Shown: positions 7,711-64,000 of the stretch, in pieces | How positions within the stretch are numbered: the first letter of the stretch is position 1 | How the letters are laid out: every line of letters begins with the position of its first letter | Source of the DNA: Haloarcula marismortui ATCC 43049 | Lineage (GTDB): Archaea > Halobacteriota > Halobacteria > Halobacteriales > Haloarculaceae | Assembly: GCF_000011085.1 (NCBI RefSeq) | Contig: NC_006396.1 | Location: 806,001-870,000, forward strand | Reading direction: 5' to 3' | DNA: 64,000 bases | The notes under the pieces: model-generated | Database searches by the model: none | Seen by the model: only the letters and a program-made list of their open reading frames with translations | What the model was told of the DNA's origin: nothing | Position numbers and translations under genes: made by a program

Positions 7711-9321
7711 TCAGTTCCGCTCTGGCTGGCCGCTCCCGTCGGTCACCGGTGCGGTGTCGCCGGTCGCCGCTGTCGCGTGGCCGGTCCCGCCGGAGACAGC
7801 GAACTCGAAGCTACTGAGCAGTTCCGAGAGGTTCTCGGCCTGATCCGAGAGATGGACCACGTCGTCTGTCACACCTTCGATGGCCGCAGTCTGTTCTTCG
7901 GCCGCCGCGGCTGCGGTCTGGGCCCCCGCGCTCGTCTGCTCGGTCATCGAGTCGAACTCCTCGACCATCGCAACCACTTCCTCCGCGGAGGCGGCCTGTT
8001 CGTCGGTCGCATCGTCGACGGACTGGATGCCGGTGTTGACCTCCTCAACGTGCTGGAGGATATCTTCGAGAACGCTGATAGTCTCATCGACCGTTTCCAG
8101 ACCGTTGTCGACGCGTTCATCCATCTCGTGAATCCCGTCGACGGTCTCGTTCGTCGACTCCTGAATCATTTCGATACGGTCCGCGATGCGCTGGGTCGCT
8201 TCCCCGGTCTCCTGTGCGAGGCCCTTGATTTCGTCGGCGACGACAGCGAAGCCCTCGCCGGCCTCGCCGGCGCGAGCGGCCTCGATAGAGGCGTTGAGCG
8301 CCAGCATGTTCGTCTGCTCGGCGATGTCTTCGATGACGCTGACGATCTCACCGACCTGCTCCATCTCGTTGTTAAGCGATTCGACACTGTCGATGGTCGA
8401 ATCGGCCTGTCGCTCGATGGCCTCCATCTCCGATTTCGCCTCGGTGACGTGCTCGCTGCCAACAGAACCGAGTTCGGACGCCTGTGCGGATTTCTGTGCT
8501 ACTTCGTCGGTCGAGGACGCTATCTCTTCAATGGTCGCAGACAGATCGGTCATCTCGTCGGTGACCTTCGTGACGGTATCGTGTTGCTTGTCGGTGTTCG
8601 AGGCGATTTCCTCGACGTTCTCGCTGACCTCCCTGCTCGCACTCCGCACCTCCTCGGCACTAGCGCCGAGTTCGTCCGTCGAGTCGTCGACCTGTCCGGC
8701 GAACTGCGTGACGGTCGTCAGCGTCTCCGAGAGCGTCTCCATCATGTCGTTGAACGCCGTCGCGATCTCAGTCATGGCCTCTGTTCGGCTTTCGGGATCC
8801 ATCCGCTGCGTGAAGTCACCCTCAGCGGCCGCATGCATCGTTGTACTGAACGACTCGGCTTTCGCTCGCAGATGACCGTTTAGTTTCTCTGACGCCTGTT
8901 TCGCCTGCTCAGCTTCCTGCCGGGCCTCATCAGCTTCCCGTTTGGCCGCCTCCGCCTGCTGGCGTTGCTCCTCAGCGGTCTCACGCTGTTCCTCCGCCTC
9001 CGCGCGCCGACTCGCGGCCGTTTTGGTAGCCGTCTTGAGGTCCTCGACAGTTGCGATGGTTCCTGTCGAGGCAATCGCGGTTACGCCAATGAGCACTGCC
9101 AAGAGGGACGTACCCAGCGCATCCATGATCGCTCCCGCGATGCCGATCCATTCGAGGAACACAACACCGGTCCAGAGAAACCCGAGTGCTGCGGCGAACG
9201 AGAAGTTCGCCCAGAACCCCGAATCGAGCTCGGTTTCGCGGTACGTTTTCACGCCGAGAACGACCGTGGCGGCGTAGGCGGTAACCGCGATGAAGTCCGC
9301 GAGGATGATGGGCGCACTCAC
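7711..9321 (-). CDS. methyl-accepting transducer with three N-terminal membrane helices
   Basis: A 536-residue halobacterial transducer (Htr). Three hydrophobic helices (about 6-27, 37-61, 64-87) have only short loops, so no large external ligand domain exists. A long charged coiled coil (about 95-150), a HAMP-like segment around [11 protein letters not shown] and a full MCP signalling domain follow. The hairpin tip around [19 protein letters not shown], which contacts CheA/CheW, is intact. The tail is Ala/Thr/Gly-rich. The GTG start overlaps the stop of the upstream three-helix protein by four bases. The likely stimulus is in or at the membrane, such as potential or a lipid-soluble signal; this is inference. 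Confidence 0.9.
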
Positions 9322-9674
9322 GGTTCTGTCCTCCCGCCATCGGCGGCGACATCTGGGCCGTCCTCAAGACCGATTTCCGGGCCGTCACCACCGGCATCGT
9401 CCGCCAGTACTTGCTTCCGGCGCACGTACGCCGCAAACAGGAACACGAGCCCCGACCCCATCAAGCCGAGGTAGTGCTCAGCGTAGTTGAGTACTGTTCC
9501 CAGAAACAGGTTCTCGACGTTAGTCACGACCGTTGCCAGAATCAGCAGTACGTAACCGACTACGAACAACCGGGAACTTCGCCGGTAGTACAGCAGTACC
9601 GGGATGAGTCCGATAAGCGCAACGATAGGGAGTACGGCTTTGTGTGGGTCGAGTGCAGCCAGTCCTGTTTGCAT
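9318..9674 (-). CDS. small three-helix membrane protein coupled to transducer
   Basis: A 118-residue protein with three predicted helices (about 13-30, 36-58, 62-84) and an acidic cytoplasmic tail. The segment [21 protein letters not shown] resembles sensor-type membrane modules with Glu/His residues inside helices. I do not recognise a named family. It is translationally coupled to the transducer (GTGA overlap) and has its own promoter, so the two probably form one sensing unit. A TATA-like element at 9700-9705 lies 26-31 bases before its ATG, consistent with a leaderless message. Confidence 0.72.
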
Positions 9675-9699: not shown

Positions 9700-9705
9700 T
9701 TATAC
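9700..9705 (-). promoter_or_regulatory. TATA element for the three-helix/transducer pair
   Basis: On the minus strand GTATAA lies 26-31 bases upstream of ATG 9674, which is the spacing expected for a leaderless haloarchaeal transcript. Confidence 0.55.
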
Positions 9706-9777
9706 GTTACCACCCAATTACAACGATTGAAAACGACATAACCGTTTTTCCAACAGCAGATCGGGACCGGTATCCAG

Positions 9778-48106: not shown

Positions 48107-49999
48107 ATGGCACAGCCAACGGGAGACATTGGGCAGCAAACAGATCGCAATCCAGGCCCAGTCGAGCGGCTAGAAAGCTTCGTATCCTATATCCCGGACG
48201 GGTCTACAATCCCTGATAAACAGTGGCGTAACCGACACCGGAGTGTGGTAGTTGTGACGTTGCTACATATCCCGTTTCTGTTCGGGCTTGGCATCTACAC
48301 CGGGTCAACTCCGATAGCTGAAGCGCAAATCCCTGCTACCGCGCTGCCACGGGTACTGTTACTCTGTGGGGTTGTGTTCGCCCTGTCAGCTGGGAGCCTC
48401 ATCGCTCGCTTCAGGCGGCGTGTCAGGACAATCCTCTCAGTCACGGCGGTGTTTGTGTCGTCACTGGCCCTCGTTCAATTATCCGGCGGCTATATCGAAG
48501 CTCATTTTCATTTCTTTGTCGGGATGGCAATGGTTGCTGTGTACGAAGACTGGGTCCCATTCTTGTGGGGATTGGCGTATGTGGTTCTCACCCACGGGTA
48601 CTTTGGGACCATCGACCCGAGTCGCGTCTATAACCACGCGGCAGCAATTAATAACCCATGGGCGTGGGGGCTCATCCACGGTGGGTTCGTCCTGATGCTG
48701 TGTGTCGCCCTCGTGAACAACTGGGTGTCAACCGAGCGATCACGCGAGAAGTCACAGGAGCGTTTCGAACAAGCCGAACAACGCGCCTCGGAGATTGACG
48801 ACCTTCAGGCCAAACAAGAGGAGATAGAGCGGAAACGCGCAGAGGCAAAGGAAGCCCGCGAGAAGGCGGAGGCAAAAATGCAGGCCGCCGAGCAGCAAAA
48901 CACGGAACTCCAAGAGACAGCCAGCAGATTCAGCGAGGCGATGGCGGCTGCCGCTGACGGTGACCTGACGGTTCGCGTCGACCCCGATGTGGCCGACAAC
49001 GAAGCGATGGCACAGATCGCAGAATCGTTCAACAAGATGATGACGGAGACGGAGTCGGCGATGGAGGAGATACAGACGTTTTCGGAAGAGGTTGCAACGA
49101 CGAGCGACCAGGTCACGGCCGGTGCGAACGAGGCGACCGGAGCCAGCGAGGACATGAGCGAGTCGATTCAGGGCATCGCCAGCGGGGCGGACGAACAACG
49201 GGAGATGCTCGAAACCGTCTCCGACGAGATGACCGATCTGTCGGCGACCGTCGAAGAAGTCGCCGCGTCCGCCGAAACCGTCGCGGAGCGGTCCCGCGAG
49301 ACGGCTGAGATTGCAGACGCGGGCCAGGAGACGGCACAGGAAGCGATAGCGGGCTCCCGTGAGGTCCAGACGGCGATCGACTCGACCGTTGAAAACGTGG
49401 AGCGATTGGACGAGAAGATGGCCGAGATCGGTGACATCGTCGAACTCATCGGCGACATCGCCGAACAGACGAACATGCTGGCCCTGAACGCCAACATCGA
49501 GGCAGCCCGGGCCGGGAACGGATCTGGCGGCGACGGGTTCGCCGTCGTTGCGGACGAGGTCAAACAGCTAGCTGAGGAGACGCAAACCTCGGCAAGCGAA
49601 ATCGAACAGCTCATCGCGGAGACCCAGGCGCAGACCGAAACCACGGTCACGGAGGCACGGGGAGCCAAGGAGGACATGCAAGAGAGTACCGAAGCCGTGG
49701 AAGCTGTCGTCGACACGTTCACGCAAGTGGCTGAAAACGCCGAGGCGACCGACAACGGTATTCAGGAGATCAGCGACACGACCGATGACCAGGCCGCCAC
49801 GACCGAGGAAACGGTGGCGATGGTCGAGGAAGCCGTGGACATCAGTGAGGCGACCGCTGCGGAAACCGAAACCGCGTCGGCGACGGCAGAGGAGCAGGCC
49901 GCGTCCATGTCACAAGTCAGTGCCAGCATCGAATCACTCGCCGACCAATCGGAGCGGCTCCAGACGATGCTGTCGGAGTTCGAGGTCGGTAGCCGCTAG
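48107..49999 (+). CDS. methyl-accepting transducer with polytopic N-terminus and HxH motif
   Basis: A 630-residue transducer. About five to six N-terminal helices cover residues 40-205. One helix carries Glu-131, His-133 and His-135 in the motif EAHFHFF, followed by an acidic/Trp turn (YEDWVPF). This motif recurs in membrane sensors of several bacteria, and it could bind metal, heme or a small ligand; that is inference. A long coiled coil (about 210-275), HAMP-like segment and MCP domain with [18 protein letters not shown] complete it. ATG 48107 is preferred over GTG 48101 because it lies at leaderless distance from GGTTAATTT. Confidence 0.88.
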
Positions 50000-62323: not shown

Positions 62324-64000
62324 GTGGGATTAGCGCCAGGCATACCGACGTGGATTCTCCTCATCGCTTTCGGTATAAATCTGGGAATTGCTGGCATTGC
62401 GATCCGCCGGAGGGGAGTCCGCGGAGCGGTCCCGCTCGCCGCGATAATGGTCTGCGTAGCGGTTTATTCGCTCGGTAACGGCATACTGGCAGCAAGCACG
62501 TCTATGTCGACGTACCGGGCCGGTCTCCTTGTCAAATACCTCGGGTTGCTCGGACTCGGGCCAACGCAGTTCTGGTTCGGGCTGACATACAGCGGCCGGG
62601 AATCGGTTCTCACTCGCCGACGCTGGGCGCTACTGCTCGCTCCGCCGGTCGTCATTTTGGGGTTTGTCGTGACCGCACAGTCACACGACCTGATGTGGAC
62701 CCTCGACGGGTTCGTGCAGGGACCGCCGCTCGCGAATCCAGAGCGCGAGAACGGCCCCATCTTCTGGCTCAATCTCCTGTACCAGTATAGTCTGATAGGG
62801 ACGACGTACGTCATCGTCGCGCTCTTCGGACTCAGGCGGAGCGGTCGGTACCGAACACAGGCGACGTTGATGTTGCTTGGCGGCATTATTCCGCTGATTG
62901 CGAGCGTGGTGTTCGTCTTCGGCAGCGGTCCGATGGGATCCGCAGACCAGACGGCGTTCGCATTCACTTTTACCGGGATTGTCTTCGCGATCGCGCTCTT
63001 TCGCTTTGACCTCCTTGACCTGATGCCCGTCGCGAGGCACACGCTCGTCGAAGAAATGGCCGACCCCGTCTTCGTCGTCGATAAAGACGAGCGGCTTGTC
63101 GACGTAAACGAGACTGGCGCAGCCCTCCTCGACAATGAAGGGACGGCGCTGGGCCGGTCTGCGACGGAGGTCATGCCGTCCTACGACTCGCTACCAGACG
63201 GCGACGACAGTGCCGACGCCGATGTTGTCATCGAGTCCAACAGCGGGCCCCGGTACTTCGATATCAACTGTTCGACGCTCACCGACCAAACTGGCTCAGT
63301 GATCGGAGAACTGCTCATTTACCGTGACGTGACTGAGCGTCGTATCGCGGAAGAGCGGTTTCAGCGACTCATCGAGCGGTCTTCGGACATGGTAACTATA
63401 CTGGACGAGGTCGGGGAGTTCACGTACGTCAGCCAGCCAGTCGAGAAGATACTCGGATACGAGCCGACCGAGCTGGTCGGCGAGAACGTCATTGAATACA
63501 TCCATCCCGATGATAGACGGGATGTTGCTGAGGATTTGGCCAAGTACGTCGACGATTACGGCTACTCTGGCACGTACGTCGTGCGGTTCCGCGACGCAGC
63601 GGGTGGCTGGCGTTTCATCGAAGCGCGCGCGACAAATCTGCTTGCCGACCCGTTCGTCGAGGGCATCGTCCTCAACTCCCGGGACGTGACCGAGCAACTA
63701 CAGCGAAAGCGGAAACTGGAACGGCAGAACGAACGGCTCGACCAGTTTGCGAGCATCGTTGCGCACGACCTCCGGAACCCGCTGAACGTCGCAAGCGGAC
63801 GTCTCAGTCTGCTTGAGCGCGATGTCGATGCTAGCCACGACGCGTCGATCAACGCGATTCAAGAGCAACTCGAGCGTATGGAATCGATTATCGACGACTC
63901 GCCCACGCTGGCTCGCTCAGGTGAAACGGTCACTGAAACAGACGAGGTTGATCTCGAGATGATTGCCTACGATGCCTGGCAGAGCGTCGAGACTGGCGGG
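62324..64000 (+). CDS. histidine kinase with 7TM N-terminus and PAS domains, truncated by window edge
   Basis: The open frame starts at GTG 62324 and runs 559 codons to the window edge. Seven hydrophobic helices form the N-terminal part (7TM histidine-kinase module), then a PAS domain (DPVFVVDKDERLVDVNETGA), a second PAS (SSDMVTILDEVGEFTYVSQP, YIHPDD, then the VLNSRDVTE PAC end) and the H box FASIVAHDLRNPLNVASGR. The ATPase domain lies beyond the edge. The upstream promoter is good; no upstream in-frame ATG is present. Confidence 0.88.
   Translation, partial: MGLAPGIPTWILLIAFGINLGIAGIAIRRRGVRGAVPLAAIMVCVAVYSLGNGILAASTSMSTYRAGLLVKYLGLLGLGPTQFWFGLTYSGRESVLTRRRWALLLAPPVVILGFVVTAQSHDLMWTLDGFVQGPPLANPERENGPIFWLNLLYQYSLIGTTYVIVALFGLRRSGRYRTQATLMLLGGIIPLIASVVFVFGSGPMGSADQTAFAFTFTGIVFAIALFRFDLLDLMPVARHTLVEEMADPVFVVDKDERLVDVNETGAALLDNEGTALGRSATEVMPSYDSLPDGDDSADADVVIESNSGPRYFDINCSTLTDQTGSVIGELLIYRDVTERRIAEERFQRLIERSSDMVTILDEVGEFTYVSQPVEKILGYEPTELVGENVIEYIHPDDRRDVAEDLAKYVDDYGYSGTYVVRFRDAAGGWRFIEARATNLLADPFVEGIVLNSRDVTEQLQRKRKLERQNERLDQFASIVAHDLRNPLNVASGRLSLLERDVDASHDASINAIQEQLERMESIIDDSPTLARSGETVTETDEVDLEMIAYDAWQSVETGG

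Follow-up and report, generated by a model that had tools for sequence, protein, structure and literature searches.

In the pairs formed by a sensory rhodopsin and its transducer (SRI-HtrI and SRII-HtrII), the two partners are encoded by neighbouring genes and the signal is handed over between helices in the membrane, where a complete seven-helix retinal protein is docked on a two-helix transducer. The locus described here, two minus-strand genes in a 64,000-nucleotide stretch of Haloarcula marismortui ATCC 43049 DNA (the window), is similar in that a receptor chain and a transducer are encoded side by side, yet it differs in having three helices per chain, and no conserved (Schiff-base) lysine was seen in the last helix in the sequences of either chain. 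We consider it probable (roughly 80%) that their products are the two halves of a single two-chain, 3+3-helix membrane receptor.

Rhodopsins are not the only separately encoded proteins that associate with Htr transducers. According to PMC3579733, BasB, CosB, OE2170R and OE2196F copurify with their Htrs, and the first two are classed there as periplasmic substrate-binding proteins, so that the view of the initial annotation, which held such an arrangement to be unusual outside the rhodopsin pairs, has to be given up. Like BasB-BasT and CosB-CosT, the window pair combines an Htr with a separately encoded, here putative, receptor protein; unlike BasB and CosB, its small protein consists of membrane helices with short ends, a Pfam match to a periplasmic substrate-binding domain is absent from its 118 residues, and the homologous chain is modelled as three helices. 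A further parallel is offered by the HisKA_7TM kinases (PF16927), in which a multi-helix membrane sensor is fused straight to the kinase, although that sensor, unlike the window pair, is a single chain with seven helices. The family has nine matches in this genome, one of them (E 5.2e-51) being the HisKA_7TM domain of a sensor kinase at window positions 62354-63028 on the plus strand. A sequence relation to HisKA_7TM was considered and rejected: hhalign against 17 members detected none, and the family is absent among the Pfam matches listed for the proteins of the window pair. One non-haloarchaeal small protein matched it at E 0.054, below the cut-off.

The features of the locus, in the direction of transcription, are the following (all on the minus strand):
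9713-9731: block TTCAATCGTTGTAATTGGG, largely conserved in an alignment of five same-genus orthologues and located upstream of the TATA box
9700-9704: TATA box of the small gene (TATAA), starting 30 nt before the ATG, found in 5/5 aligned orthologues
9318-9674: small subunit gene, 118 aa, from ATG to TGA, with three predicted helices and, judged by its charge pattern, an N-out/C-in topology
9474-9524: small-subunit signature T-N-x-E ... N-x-x-E-H (residues 51-67), by topology at the outer ends of helices 2 and 3
9330-9334: GGAGG, Shine-Dalgarno-like, inside the small gene and 8 nt before the transducer GTG
9318-9321: GTGA (TCAC on the plus strand), common to both genes, the stop codon of the small gene overlapping the start codon of the transducer
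7711-9321: 536-aa transducer of the Htr methyl-accepting type, beginning with GTG, PF00015 at E 2.9e-43
9034-9321: transducer membrane domain (residues 1-96), the putative receptor chain 2, covered by membrane-domain profile A2, with invariant D9, W37, W50, E57 and G60
8728-8847: HAMP-like stretch (residues 159-198), PF00672 at 22.8 bits and thus below Pfam's cut-off of 25
7945-8454: MCP signalling domain (residues 290-459), PF00015 at 148 bits against a cut-off of 34.6

Reading of the minus strand confirmed that the small gene shares the GTGA overlap with the transducer gene and that it encodes 118 residues behind a TATA box of its own, both as initially annotated. The fifth base of this box is A or T across the five aligned orthologues, and its position relative to the ATG suggests a leaderless or near-leaderless transcript. 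The upstream block TTCAATCGTTGTAATTGGG occurs in one exact copy in the genome, with five further copies at three mismatches and none other at fewer than three; it is possibly the site of a dedicated regulator. A motility-regulon motif was considered for it and set aside. At the gene junction, the four other same-genus orthologues (L002-L005) carry GGGAGG at the site corresponding to GGAGG, and the identical 4-nt overlap recurs at 16 of 54 haloarchaeal places (one of the 16 read by eye). Overlap and GGAGG together would couple translation of the two genes, giving near 1:1 synthesis of the two chains.

The transducer has three helices by hydropathy (5-23, 43-61 and 65-83), joined by short loops and lying within its first 96 residues. 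For the small protein only two (12-30 and 36-54) were detected at the threshold used; the third, which is polar and glycine-rich, is present in both AlphaFold models of homologous pairs described below, so that the count of three helices per chain stands. The mean net charge of the small protein is positive in loop 1 and the tail and negative in the N-terminus and loop 2. It matches no family above cut-off in Pfam, NCBIfam or PADLOC, and a sequence search for solved relatives of its profile returned none; the same search with the transducer membrane domain gave fragmentary matches only, the best at E 0.0038 (PvdL). PADLOC matches of the transducer were taken as coiled-coil noise. The idea that the two chains are copies of a duplicated three-helix unit was dropped as well, hhalign having found no similarity between them.

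Purifying selection acts on the small gene: dN/dS is 0.05-0.12 in 10 pairwise comparisons among five same-genus orthologues over the first 90 codons. Y41, T51, N52, E54, E66, H67, G70 and G75 of the small protein are invariant at 54/54 haloarchaeal places and N63 is kept at 48 of them, while D9, W37, W50, E57 and G60 of the partner membrane domain are identical in 51/51 sequences. Beside the invariant E57, transducer residue 58 (window 9148-9150, minus strand) is W, K or H (23, 21 and 7 of 51); this position is possibly a specificity switch between subfamilies.

In compact prokaryote genomes overlapping genes are frequent, and the adjacency seen in the window might accordingly be mere operon packing of two independent proteins. 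The distribution of the two genes argues against this. A family search found the small protein in 18 of 146 genomes, at 19 places, and the membrane-domain partner adjoined it at every one (19/19). In the class-wide profile search, the small protein was present at 49 places in 46 of 391 genomes, a patchy distribution in which a genome has either both chains or none. When the transducer membrane domain alone was used as the query, 52 places in 47 genomes were obtained, 49 of which lie in the same 46 genomes and adjoin the small genes. The other three are marginal 99-aa ORFs with E just below 1e-3, and one of these genomes has no pair; a scan of one ORF identified it as a DUF7521 protein, to which the other two are near-identical. 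There is thus no clear orphan of either chain in the 391 class genomes, although, since the searches scored the best 12-13 candidates of a first look per genome, a few could have been missed. In the sampled genomes the small protein and the transducer N-terminal domain occur together, adjacent, or not at all, and the pairing looks obligate. The initial annotation had named as its own refutation that the small gene be absent beside most orthologous transducers; we looked for this outcome and found the small gene adjoining 49/49 clear places.

Joined, the family and class searches yield the 54 distinct haloarchaeal places, with the partner downstream and on the same strand in 54/54. The nearest ATG or GTG start lies between -8 and +6 nt of the small-gene end (-4, 16 places; +3, 10; +2, 9; -8, 8; +1, 5; 0, 3; -1, 2; +6, 1), where the junctions of L084, L086 and L095 were read by eye and the choice of the nearest start favours short distances. 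A strict DNA motif run against an 84,980-species collection, from which records near the window's own genome were perhaps left out and in which distant relatives lack the motif, retrieved 35 stretches; 32 are haloarchaeal, and both profiles match in 32/32, the partner match of L147 being partial. The bacterial matches L149, L161 and L164, in which neither profile matches, were dismissed as chance. A single-chain fusion of both proteins was found at none of the 54 haloarchaeal and 7 other places, and the unannotated ORF lists around 12 named pairs showed no recurrent neighbour gene.

DUF7521 (PF24365), which resembles our pair in comprising haloarchaeal small membrane proteins, may be a distant relative of chain 2: a one-to-one profile comparison gave 51% probability and E 1.5e-4, a weak match to a profile of 30 automatically picked rows, at least one of which (L253) looks wrong-frame. 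The window transducer itself has no DUF7521 match among the best 25 of 27 families at E 10. DUF7521-type proteins with weak chain 2 matches are L210 1570-1863 (minus strand), L211 1639-1932 (plus) and L212 1556-1849 (minus), and the family has 4-12 matches in each of four genomes searched. Close to the receptor pair of Haloferax larsenii (L132 3404-4076, plus strand), an HTH-like gene is followed by a 101-aa membrane protein; by eye this resembles a pair of an HTH gene and a DUF7521-type gene.

The pair stays together through exchange of its output, which can be an MCP domain, a histidine kinase, PAS domains or nothing at all. An MCP core was matched in 50 of the 54 haloarchaeal partners. By Pfam, the partners of L020 and L021 have PAS domains together with a kinase ATPase domain; that of L087 is a kinase as read by eye, and that of a further named locus, L131, is a PAS-kinase with the ATPase domain recognised by Pfam. 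Outside the haloarchaea, a search of the phylum (392 genomes) and its follow-ups (179 and 11 genomes) led to eight distinct places. At seven of them a second three-helix chain adjoins the small gene; the eighth, L223 (G701), is without a partner and was discarded as a false profile match. The second chain continues into PAS domains and a kinase in L207 and L221 and into PAS domains in L222, whereas in L206, L208, L209 and L224 it stands alone, with a length of about 95 residues. The two genes overlap by exactly 4 nt in six of the seven pairs and abut in L209. The partner of L086 and the second chain of L209 (3450-3780, minus strand) are each interrupted by an in-frame stop, which could reflect a pseudogene, a sequencing error or recoding. 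The free-standing pairs L208 and L209, from two non-haloarchaeal genomes, adjoin a large SMC-like ORF, as judged by eye.

Assignment of these second chains is of uneven strength. L206 matches chain 2 at E 1.5e-6 with a profile built from haloarchaeal sequences only; for L221, a close relative of L207, and for L224, a profile whose seeds included the L206, L207 and L208 chains as well gave E 1e-23 and 6e-21. Matches are weak or absent for L208 (E 0.034), L209 (E 0.005) and L222 (none), the second chains of which were assigned by position and hydrophobicity. The initial annotation had considered the arrangement among Htr proteins; since the pair is also found joined to histidine kinases and, beyond the haloarchaea, as two free small proteins, it is not confined to them. 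Retention of the pair through output-domain exchange and outside the class is a second argument against operon packing.

A third comes from the divergence of the two chains. Over 33 pairs, distances between small proteins correlate with those between membrane domains at r 0.81, but with those between MCP cores at 0.45 only, the same value (0.45) as is obtained for the membrane domain against the MCP core of its own polypeptide; these are the 33 of 51 pairs from which an MCP core was cut out, the others being without MCP or without the cutting motif. The bootstrap interval of the difference in r is 0.17-0.54, and none of 2000 permutations reached 0.81. Over 50 pairs, the correlation between small protein and membrane domain is 0.79. 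Less favourable is that, in the three genomes with two pairs each, both chains share their nearest relative in four of six pairs and differ in L061 and L093. Co-evolution is specific to the membrane domain, and operon packing of independent proteins, already contradicted on these three counts, is very improbable.

If the small protein were an assembly or stability factor, a dedicated chaperone for transducer membrane domains of this class without any role in sensing, its strict pairing with them, the coupled translation and the shared evolution would likewise be explained. A chaperone, however, need not show the invariance that charged and polar residues, placed by topology at the outer helix ends, display in 54/54 small proteins, and the four non-haloarchaeal places with two small, free-standing chains offer no large client for it to serve. 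We therefore regard a chaperone as quite unlikely.

Covarying positions of the two chains lie at like membrane depth if the chains run parallel, N-out/C-in (P 0.008 for the top 30; 0.23, 0.055 and 0.011 for the top 10, 20 and 50), in a test that handled phylogeny by weighting and APC only and used alignments in which some tails of the separate chains are misplaced. The inter-chain covariation fits parallel docked chains and is supportive, not decisive.

The initial annotation had proposed a predicted complex as a check. Folding was carried out as a single tethered chain at two loci in which the genes share a frame, with the stop codon read as glycine; the window's own genes are out of frame, and the models are therefore those of two homologous pairs, from Halorientalis (L154, 206 aa; pLDDT 83.9, pTM 0.71) and Halobonum (L151, 218 aa; pLDDT 85.8, pTM 0.81). 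In both AlphaFold models, scored by pLDDT and pTM without an inter-chain error matrix, the chains dock and form six helices with a low-confidence linker between them. According to these predictions, the chains would lie side by side, both N-out/C-in, in a six-helix bundle with a GPCR-like layout minus one helix.

This comparison rests on VIA-align, in which the first-ranked solved structure has Z 14.9 (192 aligned at rmsd 3.9) for one model and Z 15.0 (187 aligned at rmsd 3.6) for the other, falling to 12.3 and 11.8 at rank 50. The background stated for the tool, from five mostly helical models without a clear match, is a typical top Z of about 14, with values as high as 13 still occurring at rank 50. 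By title, the best 50 matches of each model are GPCRs, GPCR-like designs or LYCHOS, with one 'a receptor'; microbial rhodopsins are absent from these 50 for either model, which excludes nothing. Foldseek gave best E values of 9.8e-3 and 6.4e-2, none at or below 0.001 and hence not significant, and both models have six helices, not seven. We read the resemblance to the GPCR-type fold as a likeness of layout, not as membership. Both N-termini are placed outside, on the grounds that the small protein has the charge pattern given above and that the signalling domain of the transducer is cytosolic; this is the orientation of TM1-3 and of TM5-7 in a GPCR, so that the helix without a counterpart would, by topology rather than coordinates, be TM4.

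By the same topology, N52, E54, N63, E66 and H67 of the small protein and D9 and E57 of the transducer would lie near the outer helix ends. The two-chain receptor proposed in the initial annotation is strongly supported by the 49/49 pairing and the docked models; its other part, that the receptor senses within the bilayer, has no direct support, since the invariant charged residues of both chains fall by topology at the outer helix ends, making a pocket on the outer face as likely as intrabilayer sensing. In such a receptor, the stimulus would act on the outer polar cluster contributed by both chains (N52, E54, E66 and H67 of the small protein, D9 and E57 of the transducer), and the resulting movement would pass down the third transducer helix into the HAMP-like coil, the MCP hairpin and finally CheA. 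That this shared pocket is the sensing site is a tentative proposal, conceivable rather than probable.

The two-subunit reading bears on transducers that have already been described. Hbt. salinarum DSM 3754 has two small-gene/Htr pairs. One of them adjoins what we take to be the CosT, CosB, SRII and HtrII genes, in an order fitting OE3473F, OE3474R and OE3481R. From position and helix count, its transducer should therefore be the orphan Htr7, in which case the other is probably Htr17; VNG1734H is presumably the small gene beside htr17. For Htr7 (OE3473F) and Htr17 (OE3436R), Table 2 of PMC3579733 gives three helices each and assigns no signal. Known receptors copurify with Htrs in the Hbt. salinarum interaction study (PMC3579733), where no small partner for Htr7 or Htr17 was seen to be named; a small membrane partner may simply have been missed. 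The Htr7 of Hfx. volcanii (HVO_1999) reaches higher levels in rods than in disks, although it fell short of the threshold set for the clusters of that paper (PMC10869688), and its transcript falls together with the che genes in an HVO_0758 mutant (PMC10716476).

A weak hint at redox comes from RosR, which under H2O2 stress binds the VNG1732C-VNG1734H-VNG1735C operon at its promoter (PMC4287449). This binding is in line with an alternative in which the pair, while still composed of two chains, senses membrane potential or redox (quinone) state in the manner of MpcT or HtrVIII and is not a ligand receptor; the charged residues in helix ends, and the lack of an extracellular domain large enough for a soluble ligand, speak for this as well. 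However, MpcT has two helices and HtrVIII six (PMC3579733 Table 2), and profiles of the pair matched none of three proteins called HtrVIII-like by eye, a comparison that leaves room for a distant relation. A potential or redox sensor is, in our estimation, unlikely, though less so than a chaperone. The window itself encodes a second transducer at 48107-49999 (plus strand; L193), of 630 aa with an MCP domain and several N-terminal helices, which by eye, when set beside L191 and L195, looks HtrVIII-like.

In its fullest form, the two-chain reading would describe a split GPCR- or opsin-like receptor, in which one chain of about 90-120 aa supplies the equivalents of TM1-3, the other those of TM5-7, and helix 4 is missing, and in which both chains contribute invariant acidic, Asn and His residues to an outer pocket. 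Such a receptor would be an old module of the haloarchaeal phylum, either free or plugged by its second chain into kinases and transducers, and would supply the missing subunits of Htr7 and Htr17. Taken as a whole, we put this forward as a possibility that is more likely wrong than right. Receptor-transducer pairs and multi-helix sensor kinases are already known; our search of the open-access literature found no obligate three-plus-three split with exchangeable output, nor any paper in which the small gene is presented as part of a receptor.

If the two-chain reading is true, two orphan transducers of the model archaeal taxis system become a testable two-subunit receptor. The pair also shows one membrane-sensor unit reused with an MCP domain, with a kinase or with no output. 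The pair may represent a natural compact receptor bundle split into equal three-helix halves, and as such it bears on the origin of the 3+1+3 seven-helix receptors.
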